NCBI GenBank assembly: GCA_017695115.1
Contig: JADILV010000056.1
Span: 1 to 52,035, forward strand
Direction: 5' to 3'
Length of the DNA stretch: 52,035 nucleotides
DNA from: Candidatus Cryptobacteroides avicola
Lineage (GTDB): Bacteria > Bacteroidota > Bacteroidia > Bacteroidales > UBA932
Numbering within the stretch: position 1 is the stretch's first letter; each line of letters opens with the position of its first letter. A program made the position numbers and the translations under genes. Positions 1-15,452 of the stretch are shown in pieces. The notes under the pieces are model-generated. The model saw nothing but the letters and a program-made list of their open reading frames with translations. It was not told the DNA's origin and made no database searches.

Positions 1-261
1 GAAATCATGAAGAAGTCCGGCATTTATCGTTATGTATTAAGTGGAGACTTGCGCGACCTCAGTTTCCGCACTTTTGATAAAAAGCAGAAACGTGAAGCCT
101 ACGAGCGGCAACAAGGAATTTGTGTTCATTGTGGCAAGCATTTCGAGTTGGAGGAAATGGAGGCCGACCACATCACGCCGTGGAAAGAAGGTGGCACGAC
201 TGTGGCGGAGAATTGCCAAATGCTTTGCAAGAATTGTAATCGGATTAAAGGAGGAAGATAA
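1..261 (+). CDS. HNH endonuclease, C-terminal end of a DUF262/HNH (GmrSD-like) protein, 5' truncated by window edge
   Basis: The reading frame is open to base 1, so the first in-frame ATG (7) is probably internal and the gene starts outside the window. Numbering from that ATG, the visible 84 residues hold a complete HNH module: zinc-ribbon cysteines C39/C42 and C74/C77, the D54-H55 catalytic pair, N69 and N78, and the closing KGG. This ending, with a KREAY-type lead-in to the zinc ribbon, is typical of the C-terminus of DUF262-HNH proteins related to the GmrSD type IV restriction enzyme, which cut modified DNA. That assignment is inferred, because the DUF262 part is not visible. It stops 2 nt before the next gene and so probably shares its transcript. 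Base composition resembles the AlbA_2 gene at 3360 rather than the A+T-rich genes directly downstream. Confidence 0.8.
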   Translation, partial: EIMKKSGIYRYVLSGDLRDLSFRTFDKKQKREAYERQQGICVHCGKHFELEEMEADHITPWKEGGTTVAENCQMLCKNCNRIKGGR

Positions 262-263
262 CT

Positions 264-1196
264 ATGGGAGAATGGTCAAAAAAAATCGGTGAATATGGGG
301 AGGATGTTGTGGAAAAATTCCTCTCAATTATTGGTTGGTGTGAACCGATGAAAGGCATCACTATGCCTTGTTCTATGCAAAATGGAGAACATAAAAACGA
401 TAAAGGAGAAAGTGTTAAAACACACGGTATTGATTTTATGTACTCATACATGAACCCACTTATTGATAATCAATTGAATAATGTAATCATTTCTTCAAAG
501 TATTCAATGGAGAAATATCCCAATAGTCCAACGCAAAAATTTAAGTGGTTTATGACGGATTTAATCAATACAATGCAATGCTTTGGCTGTTCAGGGAAGA
601 AAACAGAAATTGCAGAACAATATTCTTGCAGTTCTATTAATGATATCGGTGTATTGTTTTGGCTAAATGGAGCAAAAGATAGTAGTGATGACTTAATCAG
701 TGCTATTTCTTCCGCTAGGATAGATATTGAATGTAATAATCCAATCTATATTGTTGATAATAGACATATCGTATTTATTCTTGAGCTGATGAAATACATC
801 AAATCATTACAAAACTATAACTATTCATTTTATTACCCTTCAACTGGTCTAAACATAAATCCGGTAACTCGAAAGAATACGGGTGATTTTCTGCCAGTTG
901 AGTATATAAACTCATCGTTAATTCCATTTAAATTAGAGAATAAAAATAATCCAAATGAAACCATTCTATTTATTGGTACAATCGAAAATTTCGAAAAAGA
1001 TTCTTTCATACGATTAATGGGATTGGCAAAAGATCTTTCAACCAATTTGGCAGGTCAAGTGATTATAGGATTCCCAGATTACAACAATTTGTTACATGAA
1101 GATGTTGTCAAAACATCCAAATTGGGATTCCAAGATGCCAACTATACAAAAACTGTAAAAGCAGTAAACTTTCTTAACCCAATAGACGCATTATAA
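264..1196 (+). CDS. GapS4a-like putative nuclease subunit of an anti-phage system
   Basis: 310 aa, no signal peptide or membrane segment. The N-terminus has the layout of a PD-(D/E)XK nuclease: a helix containing GEYGEDVVEKFL (residues 9-20, with E10 and E13), then D57 in THGIDFMY, then a strand ending in S77-x-K79. The ExK position carries Ser instead of Glu, so the active site would be a variant one. The opening residues and the THG-D and ISxKYS elements look like the GapS4a family, first described as half of the two-gene GAPS4 anti-phage system of Vibrio islands; this is from memory and unverified. An AAAGGAGG ribosome-binding site at 247-254, inside the end of the preceding gene, fixes this ATG. 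The stop lies 2 nt before the next gene. Strongly A+T-rich, suggesting transfer. The remaining two thirds of the protein I do not recognise. Confidence 0.6.
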   Translation: MGEWSKKIGEYGEDVVEKFLSIIGWCEPMKGITMPCSMQNGEHKNDKGESVKTHGIDFMYSYMNPLIDNQLNNVIISSKYSMEKYPNSPTQKFKWFMTDLINTMQCFGCSGKKTEIAEQYSCSSINDIGVLFWLNGAKDSSDDLISAISSARIDIECNNPIYIVDNRHIVFILELMKYIKSLQNYNYSFYYPSTGLNINPVTRKNTGDFLPVEYINSSLIPFKLENKNNPNETILFIGTIENFEKDSFIRLMGLAKDLSTNLAGQVIIGFPDYNNLLHEDVVKTSKLGFQDANYTKTVKAVNFLNPIDAL

Positions 1197-1198
1197 TC

Positions 1199-2326
1199 AT
1201 GAATACCTTACATAAAGACATAAATAAAATCATTCCTTTTGGAGAATTTCTTAGAGGATTTATTAATCAACGTTATATAACAGTCTCCGACTTATCTAGA
1301 GTATTACGGGAACGTGGAATTTTTGTGCTTAATCATGAAAAAGACATCATGGTTCCTATAATGCAGAACCTCTTATTGTCTCCAGCTGAATTTGATAAGA
1401 TACGATATTCTTTCTCTGAAAAAGAAGATAACGAGAAAAAATTTTCAAGGGAAATAATATGGAGCCGTAACGCTCAGATATTTGACCAAGAATTTCTAAC
1501 TGTGCCATTGGATGACTTTATAAAAAAACGCTTGCCAACATGTAAATTAATTCGTCCTGTGATATTTACCAAACAAGATAATAACCCTGATCATATTATT
1601 GCAACTTTTGAAATAGAAAGACATGATATGAATAAGTCATGGTATGAACAAACAAATATTTTTCATGGTAGTATTGAGTTTATAAATGACAATGGGAAAG
1701 GCCATGTTAGAATAACTCACACAGCGACTGAAACCAAAGATTTAGCCGAAGAAATTTTGAGGGTCCAAGTCAATCGATATAAAAGTAAAGGAATTATACC
1801 GCAAGCTGTTATACCTAAAAAAATCCTCTTTTCAGAATTTACAAATGCAAATAGGTTCGTGTTTTTCTATCGTCTTACAAATCAACTGGTAAATGACACC
1901 TTTTCATGTAATAATATAAAAGATATTTCCATAAAACCAGAAGAAAATAGCACACTTCCGGAAGGTATATCATGGATGAATCGAATGAAGAAAATCCTGA
2001 TTTCTGGAGAGTCTTTAGATAAAACTTTTTTTATGAAAGAGAAAGCATATCACTCATCTCTAATTCTATGGAATATAGATGCTGTTTTTTCATTTGATTA
2101 TAAAGGAGAAAAAGGTACTGTAACTATTTGTTTGGGATTCCCTGATTATAATAAGAAATCACAAAATGCAGAATTTGAAATTACAATACATTCTTTAAAT
2201 AGCGATAATAGATTATTGCCTCGCGACAAGAAAAAGCTTGAATCACATTTACTTTCAGAGATGGATAAGCAAAAATCTTTAGTGCATAGCAACTTCATTG
2301 AATATCTTAAGGAACAAAAGAAATGA
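1199..2326 (+). CDS. GapS4b-like partner protein of the putative anti-phage pair
   Basis: 375 aa, soluble, no signal peptide. It begins with a segment rich in hydrophobic helices (DINKIIPFGEFLRGFI) followed by a possible winged-helix-like region (YITVSDLSRVLRERGIFVL, residues about 26-44), then mixed alpha/beta sequence without a catalytic motif I recognise. Position directly behind a GapS4a-like gene (2-nt gap), its size, and phrases such as NPDHI and FTNANR support a GapS4b assignment, but this rests on recalled resemblance, not on a search. If correct, the two proteins act together to detect phage infection and damage DNA or abort growth. Its last 4 nt overlap the ATG of the next gene, indicating translational coupling. 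A+T-rich like its neighbours on both sides. Confidence 0.55.
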   Translation: MNTLHKDINKIIPFGEFLRGFINQRYITVSDLSRVLRERGIFVLNHEKDIMVPIMQNLLLSPAEFDKIRYSFSEKEDNEKKFSREIIWSRNAQIFDQEFLTVPLDDFIKKRLPTCKLIRPVIFTKQDNNPDHIIATFEIERHDMNKSWYEQTNIFHGSIEFINDNGKGHVRITHTATETKDLAEEILRVQVNRYKSKGIIPQAVIPKKILFSEFTNANRFVFFYRLTNQLVNDTFSCNNIKDISIKPEENSTLPEGISWMNRMKKILISGESLDKTFFMKEKAYHSSLILWNIDAVFSFDYKGEKGTVTICLGFPDYNKKSQNAEFEITIHSLNSDNRLLPRDKKKLESHLLSEMDKQKSLVHSNFIEYLKEQKK

Positions 2327-3357
2327 AAGTTTCATATTTGGATACAATAATAGAATCTATTTGTTTGCACAAAGTTGGTAATAAGATTGCAGATGAAGGT
2401 ATCAAACTATCAAAAAAACATTTAATAGTACAAGATGATATCAAAAATATCCTTCTTAAATATTTTATAAGCTCCTTTCGTTTTGATGAATTGTATACAT
2501 TCTATCATGATTGTGACCTTTCATTAAACGAGGTTTATTACTATTGTTCAAAAATTTTTGCTACAAAAGAATGTATGCATGAGCAATCTATAAATCTCGC
2601 AAAGCATCTATATAATAATAGCACACATCCCAAAATCAAGATGGGAGAGTTTTATGTTGTCTATTTTAAAGATTGCGTTATAGATGAACAATTTGTAGAC
2701 GCAATAGGTATTTTTAAATCTGAAAACAAAGATACATTTTTGAAGATATATCCTAAAGATGATGATTTTGAAATAGAAAGCGAAAAAGGTATTAATGTTA
2801 ATAGATTAGACAAAGGTTGCTTAATCTTTAATACAGAGAAAGAAAATGGTTATATCGTTGCAGTTGTAGATAATACCAATAAAGGAACAGAAGCTCAATA
2901 TTGGATTAATGATTTTCTTCACATACGACAAAGAAAAGATAATTTCAATCAGACTCAAAATATGCTTTCTCTATGCAAGAGTTTTGTCTCTCAACTGTCT
3001 AGTAAGAATGGCAAGATAGGGAAAGCGACATATATGAACAGAAGTATTGAAGCTTTGAAAGAAGAATCTGTTAATATAAATACTTTTGCTGAACAAGTTT
3101 TTGAAACACCAGAATTGGTTTCTGAATTTAAACAATATAAAGAAACCTATCAAAGAGAACGTGATATAGAAATTGATGATACCTTTCAAACTGCATCAAC
3201 TGCAATAAAACGTAGAGCTACTGGTACCATGACAACAATCAAACTTGATAAGAACTTTGATATAAATATTCATGGTGGAGAGCAATATATAGTTCGGGGC
3301 TATGATGAAGAAAGAAAAATGTACTATTATCAATTATTCTTCAAAGAAGAAAAATAA
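2323..3357 (+). CDS. Nucleoid-associated protein, NdpA/YejK family (PF04245-like)
   Basis: 344 aa, close to the 335 aa of E. coli YejK. The family is recognised from YWINDFL (193-199) followed by RQRKDNFNQT (202-211), from the C-terminal pattern LDKNFDINIHGG, and from the closing tyrosine-rich strand. Bacteroidota versions end the same way. YejK proteins bind the nucleoid and, in E. coli, the ParE subunit of topoisomerase IV; the precise role is poorly known. The ATG overlaps the GapS4b-like stop by 4 nt and the stop sits 2 nt before the next start, so it is embedded in the defence-like operon and shares its low G+C. In this setting it may recognise foreign DNA or shield host DNA from the nuclease; that is inference. 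Confidence 0.8.
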   Translation: MKVSYLDTIIESICLHKVGNKIADEGIKLSKKHLIVQDDIKNILLKYFISSFRFDELYTFYHDCDLSLNEVYYYCSKIFATKECMHEQSINLAKHLYNNSTHPKIKMGEFYVVYFKDCVIDEQFVDAIGIFKSENKDTFLKIYPKDDDFEIESEKGINVNRLDKGCLIFNTEKENGYIVAVVDNTNKGTEAQYWINDFLHIRQRKDNFNQTQNMLSLCKSFVSQLSSKNGKIGKATYMNRSIEALKEESVNINTFAEQVFETPELVSEFKQYKETYQRERDIEIDDTFQTASTAIKRRATGTMTTIKLDKNFDINIHGGEQYIVRGYDEERKMYYYQLFFKEEK

Positions 3358-3359
3358 AT

Positions 3360-4712
3360 ATGATACTTACCGAATCCCAAAACATAGAGTTCAAAGAGTC
3401 TTGGCGTGACGAATACCAGAAATGGATTTGTGGCTTTGCCAATGCTCAAGGCGGTGTCCTTTATGTGGGCGTAAAGGATAATGGCGAGGTGTACGGCGTG
3501 CAGGATGCCAAGAAATTGATGGAGGACATTCCGAACAAGGTGCGCGACATGATGGGTATCTTGGTGGATGTCAATCTGAAAGAGAAGGACGGAAAGCAAT
3601 ATCTGGAGATTGTGACGGAGGCTTATCCTTATCCCGTCAGTTTTCGTGGCAAGTATTACCAGCGGAGCGGTGCGACTAATCAGGAACTGAAAGGAGCGGC
3701 ACTTGATCGCTTTATGCTTCGCAAGCAAGGCAAGACTTGGGATAGTGTGCCTGTACCTTATCTGAAAGCAGAGGATCTGGACAACGCTACATTTGATTTG
3801 TTCCGAAAGTATGCCAAGCTGAGTGGACGCATGGAGGAAGCGGACTTGATGGATGACAATCACGGACTGTTGGAGAAACTCCGGCTTTATGAGGGCAGTT
3901 ATCTGAAACGTGCTGCCGCCTTGCTGTTCCATCCTGACCCGGAAAAGTATGTGACCGGAGCGTTTGTAAAGGTCGGCTTCTTCCGTGAAGGTATGGATTT
4001 GGTGTATCAAGACGAAGTGCATGGCAATTTGTTCCAGCAAATCATGAAACTGATGGACTTGCTGTGCACCAAATACATGAAAGCCATCATTACCTACGAA
4101 GGCATCCAACGGATAGAAACTTTACCCATGCCCCGTGAGGTTCTACGTGAAGCGTTATTGAATGCCTGTATCAACAAAGACTACGCAGAACCTTCTCCCA
4201 TCCAAATCCGTGTGTATGAAAACAAGTTGGAGATTATAAACGGTGGTGTATTACCCGAAGGGTGGACTGTGGAAACCTTATTGTCTTCACATCGGAGTAT
4301 GCCTTACAACCCTGATATTGCTAACACATTCTTCCGTGCAGGTGAGATTGAGGCATGGGGACGCGGCATTGAACGCATCATCACGGCTTGTAAGAATGAC
4401 GGATTCTCCACACCGGAGTTCCGCTATGATGCTTCGGGTATTTGGACTACATTCAAGTTCGAATATCCGGAAAGGGCTACGACCCAGAAAACGACCAGAA
4501 AGCGACCAGAAAGCGACCAAAGCAAACAGGAAGATGCTATTATAGAACTTCTTAAAGAGAATCCCTATATTTCAAGAAAAGAGATTTCTGGCCGATTGGG
4601 ACTACATGACAGCAGTGTAAAAAGGCGATTAGCTTCACTTCAAGAGAAAGGAGCAGTTAAGCGTATAGGACCGGATAAAGGCGGCTATTGGGAAGTCCAA
4701 CAAGGATTTTGA
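3360..4712 (+). CDS. Schlafen/AlbA_2 domain, GHKL-ATPase-like, winged-helix regulator
   Basis: 450 aa. Residues 1-120 form a Schlafen AlbA_2 domain (SQNIEFKES at 6-14, then FANAQGGVLYVGVKDNGEVYG). Residues about 255-370 form the RecG-like ATPase domain of the HATPase_c_4 type (REALLNAC at 263-270, EIINGG at 291-296, EAWGRGIERI at 331-340). Residues about 390-447 form a winged helix (ISRKEISGRLGLHDSSVKRRL). Such proteins are common, poorly characterised regulators or defence components. The linker (373-389) is encoded by 11-bp tandem repeats at 4481-4523; because 11 is not a multiple of three, a change of one copy would shift the frame and remove the winged helix. G+C is clearly higher than in the three genes before it. 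It is the last gene of the packed operon. Confidence 0.8.
   Translation: MILTESQNIEFKESWRDEYQKWICGFANAQGGVLYVGVKDNGEVYGVQDAKKLMEDIPNKVRDMMGILVDVNLKEKDGKQYLEIVTEAYPYPVSFRGKYYQRSGATNQELKGAALDRFMLRKQGKTWDSVPVPYLKAEDLDNATFDLFRKYAKLSGRMEEADLMDDNHGLLEKLRLYEGSYLKRAAALLFHPDPEKYVTGAFVKVGFFREGMDLVYQDEVHGNLFQQIMKLMDLLCTKYMKAIITYEGIQRIETLPMPREVLREALLNACINKDYAEPSPIQIRVYENKLEIINGGVLPEGWTVETLLSSHRSMPYNPDIANTFFRAGEIEAWGRGIERIITACKNDGFSTPEFRYDASGIWTTFKFEYPERATTQKTTRKRPESDQSKQEDAIIELLKENPYISRKEISGRLGLHDSSVKRRLASLQEKGAVKRIGPDKGGYWEVQQGF
4481..4523 (+). repeat. 11-bp tandem repeat inside the AlbA_2/HTH gene
   Basis: Units of the form GACCAGAAAGC occur in a row: a first 12-bp variant (4481-4492), two identical 11-bp units (4493-4503 and 4504-4514), and a shortened 9-bp unit (4515-4523). 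Each unit is read in a different frame, giving the linker residues TTQK, TTRK, RPES and DQS. Both alternative frames downstream hit stops quickly (4543-4545 and 4553-4555), before the winged helix. Confidence 0.85.
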
Positions 4713-4805
4713 ACCAAGGTGGAGAAGTTTTCATGATCACATGTCTGACTTTCAAAAGAAAGCTGTATATTTTTCAAAGATAAAGGAAACCTCCACGCAA
4801 TCTGA

Positions 4806-4946
4806 CGCAGAACGCTGCAACAACTCGGTGGAGCAATAGCGGGAGATTACACTACTTGCCGATTTATAAATCAAAGATATTCAGCCACTTGGAAGGATAG
4901 TTCAATTCCTGGTGACCCTACACTGAAAAATCAAGCAGTTAGATGA
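4806..4946 (+). pseudogene. Possible decayed gene fragment (46 codons, no start)
   Basis: An open frame with protein-like composition runs from just after a stop at 4803-4805 to a TGA at 4944-4946 and ends inside the terminator hairpin, as a gene end would. Its translation includes LQQLGGAIAG and FINQRYSATWKDSSIPG. I do not recognise the family. No ATG/GTG/TTG with suitable context is seen near the left end. It may be the tail of a gene removed when the island was inserted or deleted, or chance. Confidence 0.3.
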
Positions 4947-4965
4947 AAATCTGACTGCTTTTTTT
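4933..4965 (+). terminator. Rho-independent terminator after the island
   Basis: Stem AAGCAGT-T-AGAT with loop GAAA and the matching arm ATCT-G-ACTGCTT, followed by seven T (4959-4965). It ends rightward transcription from the island, about 220 nt after the AlbA_2 gene stop. Confidence 0.85.
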
Positions 4966-5053
4966 CGTTTATGTCCGGCACCGTTTAAAGGCTGTTCTAC
5001 GGCTCAGAGTTAAACCGGGATGTAAACCGGAATTTCATTGGACCTGTGTTATT

Positions 5054-5587
5054 TTAGAACGTGATTCCGACAGTGATTTTAGGCATGGCCTTGACGTTTG
5101 ACGTGCCGTTTTCTCCGAACATGAAGACAGCTGCACCTAAAGTAAGGTTCATGCCGAGTCTGCTGTTGAATGCCCAGTCCCAGCCTATATTGGGGGCCAG
5201 TTCAAATGCGCTGCTGAAAGTATTGCCTGCCAGATTCTGCAAAGACGAGCAGTAACCGGCCCTGATGCCTGCTGTCGGAGTGCTGTTTTTTTCGAGAAAA
5301 TATGCTTTATACTCTGCGAAGAAGTGGAAGAATGACGGAATCTCGTCCATAGGTGCCGCGAACATTCCTACTCCGGCGCCCAGATAATGGTGCGGACTGA
5401 ACATATAGCCGTGTGAGGTGTCGAATCCTACCCAGACGCCGAGCTGGTCCGTAAAAGACACACTGCCTTTATAACCTGCTGTCCTGTAGAGGGGTCTGCC
5501 GTTGTCCAGCCTGTTTTTTGCTGATGATATATTGCATGCGGCGGCCATTGCAAGGCAAAGTGCCATAGTCAGAACAATTTTTTTCAT
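5054..5587 (-). CDS. Small outer-membrane beta-barrel-like protein
   Basis: 177 aa. An N-terminal export signal is clear (MKKIVLTMALCLAMAAAC). Cleavage could be by signal peptidase II at C18 (AAAC) or by signal peptidase I after NISSA. The mature part is rich in Gly and aromatic residues with alternating patterns (YLGAGVGMF, AGIRAGY, LGMNLTLGAAVF) and ends in a phenylalanine (ITVGITF), the classic C-terminal signal of outer-membrane barrels. The size suggests an eight-stranded barrel. It is the second gene of a leftward pair, 11 nt after the lipoprotein gene. No specific function can be assigned. Confidence 0.7.
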   Translation of the reverse strand: MKKIVLTMALCLAMAAACNISSAKNRLDNGRPLYRTAGYKGSVSFTDQLGVWVGFDTSHGYMFSPHHYLGAGVGMFAAPMDEIPSFFHFFAEYKAYFLEKNSTPTAGIRAGYCSSLQNLAGNTFSSAFELAPNIGWDWAFNSRLGMNLTLGAAVFMFGENGTSNVKAMPKITVGITF

Positions 5588-14611: not shown

Positions 14612-15243
14612 AAGGAACATTGGCGGTAGTTCTGGTCTTTGCTGCCGGATGTCTGGCCGGATGGTCAGGACTGGCAGACCTGGAAAGTTTCGGGGAGATA
14701 GGGAAGGATCTTACCATGTATGTGCTCTATCTTCTGATTTTTCTGGTGGGAATCAGCATGGGGTGCAACCCTGACCTGAAGAAAATCGTAAAGAGCGTGA
14801 GTCCGAAGATTTTCCTGCTCCCTGTGGTGACTATTCTGGGAACTCTTCTGTTTTCAGCCCTGGCGAGTCTGCTTATTTCAAAATGGAATGTATTTGACTG
14901 TCTTGCCGTCGGTAGCGGAATGGGTTACTACTCGCTTTCTTCAGTGCTGATTTCCCAGTATAAGGAAGCATCGCTCGGAGTGCAGCTGGCTGCCGAGCTC
15001 GGAACCATCGCTCTGCTGACCAACATTTTCCGTGAGATGTTCACTATCATCTGTACTCCGCTGCTCGGCAGGTGGTTCGGCCCGTTTGCTCCCATCGCGT
15101 CGGCCGGGGTGACCGCAGTGGATGTCTGCCTTCCTGTAATCGTCAGATTCACTGGCGACAGGATGCTTCCTGCCGCTATTGTCAGCGGTGTTGTCACCGA
15201 CTTCAGCGTTCCTGTCCTTGTCTCGTTCTTCTGCTCGCTATAA
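14608..15243 (+). CDS. LysO family transporter, C-terminal subunit
   Basis: 211 aa with six to seven membrane helices. Family features are GISMGCNPDLKK in a loop, the GSGMGYYSLSSVLISQ segment, the LGTIALLTNIFREM helix and the closing GDRMLPAAIVSGVVTDFSVP, all as in the C-terminal two thirds of LysO. Together the two subunits total 308 aa, about the length of the single-chain E. coli protein (299 aa). The gene is followed after about 20 nt by a 51-nt palindrome that separates it from the convergent tRNA-Asp gene. Confidence 0.88.
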   Translation: MKGTLAVVLVFAAGCLAGWSGLADLESFGEIGKDLTMYVLYLLIFLVGISMGCNPDLKKIVKSVSPKIFLLPVVTILGTLLFSALASLLISKWNVFDCLAVGSGMGYYSLSSVLISQYKEASLGVQLAAELGTIALLTNIFREMFTIICTPLLGRWFGPFAPIASAGVTAVDVCLPVIVRFTGDRMLPAAIVSGVVTDFSVPVLVSFFCSL

Positions 15244-15264
15244 ATAGGGGGAGGTGCTTAAATA

Positions 15265-15315
15265 AAGGAAAGAGACATAATAAATTGAATTTCAATTTAT
15301 TATGTCTCTTTCCTT
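15265..15315. terminator. 51-nt perfect palindrome, probable two-way terminator
   Basis: A 25-nt arm (15265-15289) is exactly complementary to 15291-15315 around a single central T (15290). It begins 2 nt beyond the 3' end of tRNA-Asp and about 20 nt after the lysO stop. Both outer ends are pyrimidine-rich when transcribed outwards (TCTCTTTCCTT), so it can end transcripts from both sides. Confidence 0.75.
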
Positions 15316-15317
15316 AG

Positions 15318-15391
15318 CGGTGCGGACGGGACTCGAACCCGCGACCCCGGGCGTGACAGGCCCGTATTCTAACCAGCTGAACTACCGCACC
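15318..15391 (-). tRNA. tRNA-Asp (anticodon GTC)
   Basis: 74 nt on the minus strand. Acceptor stem GGTGCGG pairs with CCGCACC, discriminator G at 15318. The anticodon stem CGGGC/GCCCG closes the loop CTGTCAC, with anticodon GTC at 15355-15357. The T arm carries GGTTCGAGTCC. CCA is not encoded (the genome continues CTA), so it must be added after transcription. A strong promoter lies at 15453-15483. Confidence 0.97.
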
Positions 15392-15452
15392 AGACTTTTC
15401 AAATTTCGCTGTAGGAGGAGGACTTTTGTGTCTCATTTCCTGATTGCGGATG

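Follow-up and report, generated by a model that had tools for sequence, protein, structure and literature searches.

Introduction

GAPS4, the pair formed by GapS4a and GapS4b, was reportedly described from Gamma-Mobile-Trio islands (Mahata et al. 2024, Nat Microbiol), and the published system is said to consist of two genes. It is also reported to sense DNA ends, which we do not use as evidence. Here we analyse a contig of Candidatus Cryptobacteroides avicola (JADILV010000056.1, assembly GCA_017695115.1), taken whole at 52,035 bases and called the window below, whose first genes include a gapS4a-gapS4b pair followed by an ndpA gene of the NA37 family. We propose that these three genes make up a cassette and represent a new variant of GAPS4, of solid genomic standing and with a putative role in phage defence.

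The NA37 family includes YejK (NdpA) of Escherichia coli, StaR of Streptococcus pneumoniae and NdpA2 of Pseudomonas aeruginosa. StaR and YejK are nucleoid-associated and NA37 relatives modulate topoisomerases (PMC10053502). A literature search confined to a collection of published articles returned no paper on GapS4a, GapS4b or GAPS4, which does not establish absence from print; in the same collection, NdpA appeared together with anti-phage defence in one paper, on mobile elements of a Pseudomonas. A 2026 article lists, as future work, how host nucleoid-binding proteins affect immune systems (PMC12904381). The cassette bears on the question of how several DNA-cutting immune systems spare the chromosome of their host.

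A gapS4a-gapS4b-ndpA cassette

Five open reading frames lie on the plus strand at the start of the window (1-261, 264-1196, 1199-2326, 2323-3357 and 3360-4712), separated by 2, 2, -4 and 2 nucleotides (nt), as an initial annotation of the sequence had stated. The features that concern the cassette are the following.

264..1196, plus strand: gapS4a, 310 amino acids (aa), predicted PD-(D/E)XK nuclease (NF047933, 351.7 bits, cut-off 270)
1199..2326, plus strand: gapS4b, 375 aa, predicted RdgC/CENP-L-like fold at residues 78-368 (NF047934, 340 bits, cut-off 300)
2323..3357, plus strand: ndpA of the NA37 family, 344 aa, third cassette gene, overlapping gapS4b by 4 nt (PF04245, 111.4 bits, cut-off 24.6, residues 15-321)
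263..3356, plus strand: conserved three-gene cassette, given by the bounds of homology to Barnesiella locus L008 (blastn)

Both GapS4 genes are whole, both proteins exceed the NCBI family cut-offs, and the GapS4b gene lies directly downstream of the GapS4a gene after a 2-nt gap, which places the pair in the GAPS4 family with an identical gene order. The assignment of the pair in the initial annotation was thus borne out, as was its identification of NdpA. What sets the locus apart from GAPS4 is a third gene, ndpA, which overlaps the end of gapS4b and repeatedly accompanies the pair, whereas the two E. coli copies that we examined (RefSeq gapS4a-gapS4b) have no such neighbour. PADLOC, in its 2023 version, gave no match for gapS4a, gapS4b or ndpA. 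The ndpA of the cassette is the single NA37 gene in the window's genome.

The comparison covered 40 different GapS4 loci: the window, 22 loci obtained by scanning a single genome per species with two peptide patterns (a procedure that favours window-like sequences), 13 further genomes found with the GapS4a family model (G506 is the same as L021 and G1109 the same as L029, each counted once), two plasmids, and two of the four GapS4-bearing E. coli genomes. Three loci were unassessable, two of them at a contig edge (G463 and G690) and one, G1069, where the match to GapS4a breaks off at residue 153 and no GapS4b was detected beside it. NdpA lies directly 3' of GapS4b in 26 of the 31 assessable loci outside Gammaproteobacteria (the window, L008-L025, L027, G012, G253, G285, G696, G819 and G974). 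Not all 26 are independent, because L024 and L025 are near-copies, as are L011 and L014, and not all are labelled Bacteroidota, L009 and L010 being metagenome bins labelled Bacillota and Saccharibacteria. L016 is counted as adjacent without being joined: its contig ends inside gapS4b, and on another contig from that genome a gapS4b end is followed by NdpA. Among the genomes of the window's phylum, class and order found with the family model (13 besides the window, ten assessable), adjacency stands at 7/10.

The order of the genes is constant, and at 20 of the 26 junctions the gap between GapS4b and NdpA is -4, -1, 2 or 3 nt; the remainder range from -52 to 142 nt, with mechanically called starts. 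No other neighbour recurring as NdpA does was found among the loci compared. The survey that the initial annotation had proposed for a recurring ndpA gene came out in its favour. NdpA linkage occurs in three separate parts of a GapS4b tree of 34 sequences. Because the three genes stand together in 26 of the 31 loci, NdpA is likely to be a working part of the system.

The ends of sequence similarity between loci fall close to the cassette. The window (263-3356) and L008 (10000-13093) align at 76.3% over 3,096 columns in blastn, starting one base 5' of the GapS4a start codon and stopping at the penultimate base of the NdpA stop codon, and share two short pieces further on. G012 and G696 have in common a block with just two genes in it, a fused GapS4a-GapS4b gene and NdpA, and one of the blocks shared by G253 and G285 begins 32 bases ahead of GapS4a and finishes at the NdpA end; in both pairs the bounds lie within 35 nt of the cassette genes. 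The L011/L014 block also takes in part of the next AlbA_2-type gene, and L017 and L018 share 8.7 kb at 93%, including the cassette and AbiE-type genes. The hosts of this last pair, Segatella baroniae and Capnocytophaga felis, belong to different families. The flanks vary between loci and carry modification genes of type I, type III and Eco57I type as well as TIR, UvrD, GmrSD_N, AbiE, RhuM and TmtA-like ones (19 flank proteins were scanned with Pfam). Taken together with the survey, these bounds indicate that only gapS4a, gapS4b and ndpA form a unit. The single five-gene unit of the initial annotation is therefore retained for these three genes and given up for the HNH and AlbA_2 genes on either side.

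The substitution ratios indicate that the cassette genes are under shared purifying selection. The ratio of nonsynonymous to synonymous substitution rates (dN/dS) for NdpA is 0.04 between the window and L008 and 0.05 between G253 and G285, and lies at 0.02-0.07 for GapS4a and GapS4b, with synonymous sites near saturation; it was not computable for the NdpA of G012 and G696. Between L017 and L018, a close pair with few changes, it is 0.10 for NdpA, 0.30 for GapS4a and 0.12 for GapS4b. Over 19 loci (20 tried; L012 was dropped for want of a GapS4a call), pairwise distances correlate at r 0.97 for GapS4a-GapS4b, 0.78 for GapS4a-NdpA and 0.80 for GapS4b-NdpA, values reached in 0/5000 permutations and still containing the shared host phylogeny. 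GapS4-linked NdpA proteins also group together in a tree of NA37 proteins. Of 63 proteins selected for it, two went unrecognised and were dropped, which leaves 61. Of these, 23 are linked ones, the set being without the partial proteins of L009 and L015 and without L025, a near-copy. Linkage changes four times on the tree, against a mean of 18.7 after shuffling (0/500).

A fused variant with a different nuclease domain

In three genomes (G012, G696 and G463) a single protein of about 895-902 aa carries GapS4a-like and GapS4b-like parts.

L043:9594-12281, L044:8497-11187 and L033:150-2858: members of a widespread group of fused GapS4 relatives that have lost the site in the GapS4a part and gained an N-terminal endonuclease-effector domain

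The G012 protein falls below the two NCBIfam cut-offs, at 161.5 and 129.6 bits. The N-terminal 98 aa of the fused proteins match the PADLOC 'Effector' model PDLC00735 (E 1.8e-18, 1.6e-13 and 5.9e-19), which we take to be a CBASS-type endonuclease model. Among 113 full-length relatives (from the best 120 of 168 matches, with 7,994 candidates scored), D43, Q57 and K59 of the new domain are invariant (113/113). In the GapS4a-like part, by contrast, the position of D57 is taken by D (56), N (41) or E (16), and no lysine is conserved at that of K79. Where source names are given among the best 120 of the 168 matches, they read 'hypothetical' or 'uncharacterized'. The likeness to CBASS-type endonuclease effectors is confined to this domain, which was found only in the fused relatives, joined to GapS4a- and GapS4b-like parts; the window protein is without it. 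The DNA downstream could be read for two of the fused genes, and in both cases NdpA comes next, overlapping by 4 nt (2/2). The nuclease would thus have been swapped while the GapS4b-like part and NdpA were kept, which suggests that NdpA works with the scaffold rather than with one particular nuclease, two loci being few.

A search of plasmids gave no full-length copy of the fused variant. Proteins of 359 aa on Agrobacterium and Aminobacter plasmids (L134:5001-6080 and L135:5001-6080) share its N-terminal nuclease-type domain, and their genes lie 3' of a gene for an ATP-binding protein.

NA37 proteins in genomes with GapS4

A family search found NA37, linked or elsewhere, in 25 of 27 GapS4a-bearing genomes. 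The two without it are G1069, with the GapS4a match ending at residue 153, and G690, with a 57-residue match at a contig end. NA37 is present in all 22 of the checked genomes with whole GapS4 genes (a Dysgonomonas pair read in two pieces included) and in three genomes with broken ones (G1109, G1111 and G410). As background, it occurs in 38 of 198 genomes of the phylum, relatedness being uncontrolled, and in 4 of 94 Gammaproteobacteria; among these four are both GapS4a-bearing genomes known from that group, one of them the centre of the sample.

Three comparisons, all of which ignore relatedness, were made from these counts. NA37 occurs in 11/13 genomes of the family-model set against 35/195 of the background (Fisher p 1.2e-6; the 195 are the 198-genome phylum set minus G000, G012 and G154), in 4/6 of the unlinked or unassessable cases against the same 35/195 (Fisher p 0.014), and in 2/2 against 2/92 in Gammaproteobacteria (p 0.0014), where one of the two is the sample centre, chosen for its GapS4a. 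In the family of G1172, NA37 is patchy (4/13). Dependence on NA37 in trans is suggested by these counts; as proof of it we set unlinked NA37 aside, since the p values of 0.014 and 0.0014 both ignore relatedness.

The window NdpA lies above the PF04245 cut-off and is only 11 and 17% identical to two aligned gammaproteobacterial NA37 proteins. A profile that includes two gammaproteobacterial members matches PDB 9be2 (YejK; E 2.8e-6). While the window gene sits inside a GAPS4 cassette, the unlinked NA37 genes that we scanned are mostly beside housekeeping-type genes: of nine neighbours at eight loci, six are of this type (Tex, histone-deacetylase-like, MFS, M3 peptidase, ABC and asparaginase), a seventh is DUF3810, and the remaining two gave no match.

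The GapS4a and GapS4b proteins

Residues E13, D57, S77 and K79 of GapS4a are invariant in 29/29 diverse GapS4a proteins and in 113/113 full-length relatives (from the best 120 of 239 matches). Serine replaces the middle acid of the PD-(D/E)XK site, giving the variant motif S77-x-K79, and the variant site with D57 and S-x-K79 that had been read from the single sequence is therefore conserved across relatives. VIA matches lend tentative fold support to the PD-(D/E)XK assignment on the predicted structure (predicted local distance difference test, pLDDT, 84.7), and GapS4a is predicted to cut DNA. Acetyl-CoA carboxylase chains, the top Foldseek rows for GapS4a, were rejected as spurious at a root-mean-square deviation above 14.

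The predicted fold of the window GapS4b resembles the DNA-binding RdgC, CENP-L and Iml3 fold, and from this weak fold match we infer that GapS4b may be an RdgC-like, DNA-holding subunit. No credible solved structure related by sequence to GapS4a or GapS4b was found. The two are not treated as paralogues, a profile comparison having given that a probability of 0.8%.

Neighbouring genes and other GapS4 copies

Three further features surround the cassette in the window.

1..261, plus strand: HNH endonuclease-type protein, C-terminal 86 aa, an island neighbour outside the unit (PF01844, 56.5 bits)
3360..4712, plus strand: neighbouring gene for a 450-aa protein with SLFN_AlbA_2, HATPase_c_4 and winged-helix domain matches
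4933..4960, plus strand: terminator-like hairpin with a T run, 3' of the AlbA_2 gene (consensus match only; four such sites in 1-5100 against 2.5 expected)

The first gene is open at base 1 and must be truncated, because the start of the window is the end of the contig. Its visible part supports the HNH nuclease named in the initial annotation and matches the PADLOC model REase_II PDLC03418 (91.2 bits, model positions 288-367 of 372); the DUF262 label given to the same gene could not be confirmed, as the N-terminal part lies beyond the contig start. A candidate for the missing half was sought in the genome, and the single GmrSD_N/DUF262 gene found there was rejected, being complete and on another contig. 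By phmmer, the 86-aa query found no HNH relative at other loci (E up to 1e-4, or 1e-3 near GapS4), several of which have little upstream DNA.

The last gene does encode the ATP-binding winged-helix protein first described. Of the 20 loci that extend roughly 1 kb or more past NdpA, only 4 have an AlbA_2/HATPase_c_4-type gene after it (the window, L008, L011 and L014; L012 has a 90-aa remnant), so that its expected co-occurrence with the pair is largely refuted. The 3' third of the window AlbA_2 gene and the stretch that follows it (4217-4930) recur in L008 at 14903-15409 and 14726-14829 in swapped order, window 4217-4723 being matched there separately, and the pieces in L008 lie past another AlbA_2-type gene. 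This looks like turnover at the site.

Two GapS4 copies are on plasmids. No viral copy was confirmed in IMG/VR, where 53 stretches fit a pattern, and phage records gave none. In E. coli EH01-18-02 (L130:5001-7074), gapS4a-gapS4b lies within the tail gene cluster of a chromosomal prophage, flanked by genes for tail fibre assembly and for the tail sheath (the prophage is P2-like as judged from gene order), and in a second E. coli (L131:5001-7041) the pair is beside an integrase adjoining tRNA-Gly. In G324 (L039:10614-13320, no linked NdpA), GapS4b is followed by proteins of 565 aa, with no Pfam or PADLOC match, and 347 aa, with no Pfam match.

Discussion

The reading that we favour, with a probability of about 0.6, is that gapS4a, gapS4b and ndpA form a three-gene GAPS4 cassette in which NdpA likely docks or gates a predicted nuclease. 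GapS4a would cut DNA and GapS4b would hold it, while NdpA would couple the complex to the condition of the DNA, either docking GapS4ab on it or gating GapS4ab, so that the host chromosome would be spared. NdpA would then be needed for activity or for safety, and we infer that the two-gene versions may rely on an NA37 protein whose gene lies apart from them, which in E. coli would be YejK.

Several observations weigh against this reading. Five of the 31 loci outside Gammaproteobacteria have no adjacent NdpA (L026, L028, G154, G324 and G410), of which L028 has a broken gapS4a and G410 broken genes, and NdpA is adjacent in none of the six gammaproteobacterial loci (L029, with gapS4a in two frames, G1172, a Pantoea and an Ewingella plasmid, and the two E. 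coli). The two-gene GAPS4 is reported to protect E. coli. Unlinked NA37 is present in 9/9 genomes in the genus of G154 and G324 and in 59/71 in Mucilaginibacter, and because NA37 is common in some hosts its unlinked presence may be a coincidence. The unlinked genes scanned have mostly housekeeping-type neighbours. NdpA can also have a history of its own, since the GapS4b genes of L017 and L018 are nearly identical (dS 0.01) when their NdpA genes have a dS of 0.21. The linked NdpA of Kaistella (L027:12007-13047) groups with unlinked NA37 proteins rather than with other linked ones, as would be seen had a host copy been recruited. Finally, the island-borne NdpA2 of Pseudomonas acts as a transcription co-regulator (PMC8565334).

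A tentative alternative is that NdpA is an immunity factor, shielding host DNA from a constitutively active GapS4ab that would be restricted to hosts with NA37. The presence of NA37 in all 22 genomes with whole GapS4 genes is what it would predict, the two GapS4a-bearing exceptions being the match that stops at residue 153 and the 57-residue one, but NdpA as an activator predicts the same pattern equally well, and NA37 is common or universal in some hosts.

The main rival, in our view rather improbable, is that NdpA regulates the operon or the transfer of an island, in the manner of NdpA2 of PAPI-1. NdpA2 acts with TprA to control PAPI-1 genes and transfer, and raises the DNA affinity of MvaT (PMC8565334), and the nucleoid association of StaR and YejK would suit such a role (PMC10053502). 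Against this, the cassette has dissimilar flanks and the shared blocks are bounded by its three genes, a Pfam scan of 19 flank proteins showed no TprA-like ribbon-helix-helix protein, and the NdpA partner is kept despite the swap of the nuclease domain.

That NdpA is an island hitch-hiker with no functional tie to GapS4 is very improbable: the loci are surrounded by defence-type genes (restriction-modification, TIR, AbiE, RhuM and others), a setting in which chance neighbours are common, but no other neighbour recurs likewise in the compared loci, and the adjacency in three parts of the GapS4b tree, the block bounds and the purifying selection argue against it. Just as doubtful is a five-gene system in which HNH, GapS4ab, NdpA and AlbA_2 act jointly, for which the tight spacing of all five frames and the AlbA_2/HATPase_c_4-type genes 3' of NdpA in L008, L011 and L014 speak, but no HNH relative was found at other loci, two of the four loci with AlbA_2-type genes are the near-copies L011 and L014, and the block shared with L008 stops at NdpA.

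Going beyond the cassette reading, it is conceivable, and more speculative, that GAPS4 is everywhere gated by a nucleoid-associated protein, Bacteroidota bringing NdpA and gammaproteobacterial copies borrowing YejK, so that an interchangeable nuclease (the GapS4a site or a CBASS-type domain) would be told what is self by a protein that packs the chromosome. The nuclease swap in the fused form points to an exchangeable part of GAPS4. We believe that a cassette with its own nucleoid-associated protein, together with the presence of NA37 in 22 of 22 genomes with whole GapS4 genes, makes the question of how the host chromosome may be spared directly testable in E. coli through yejK.

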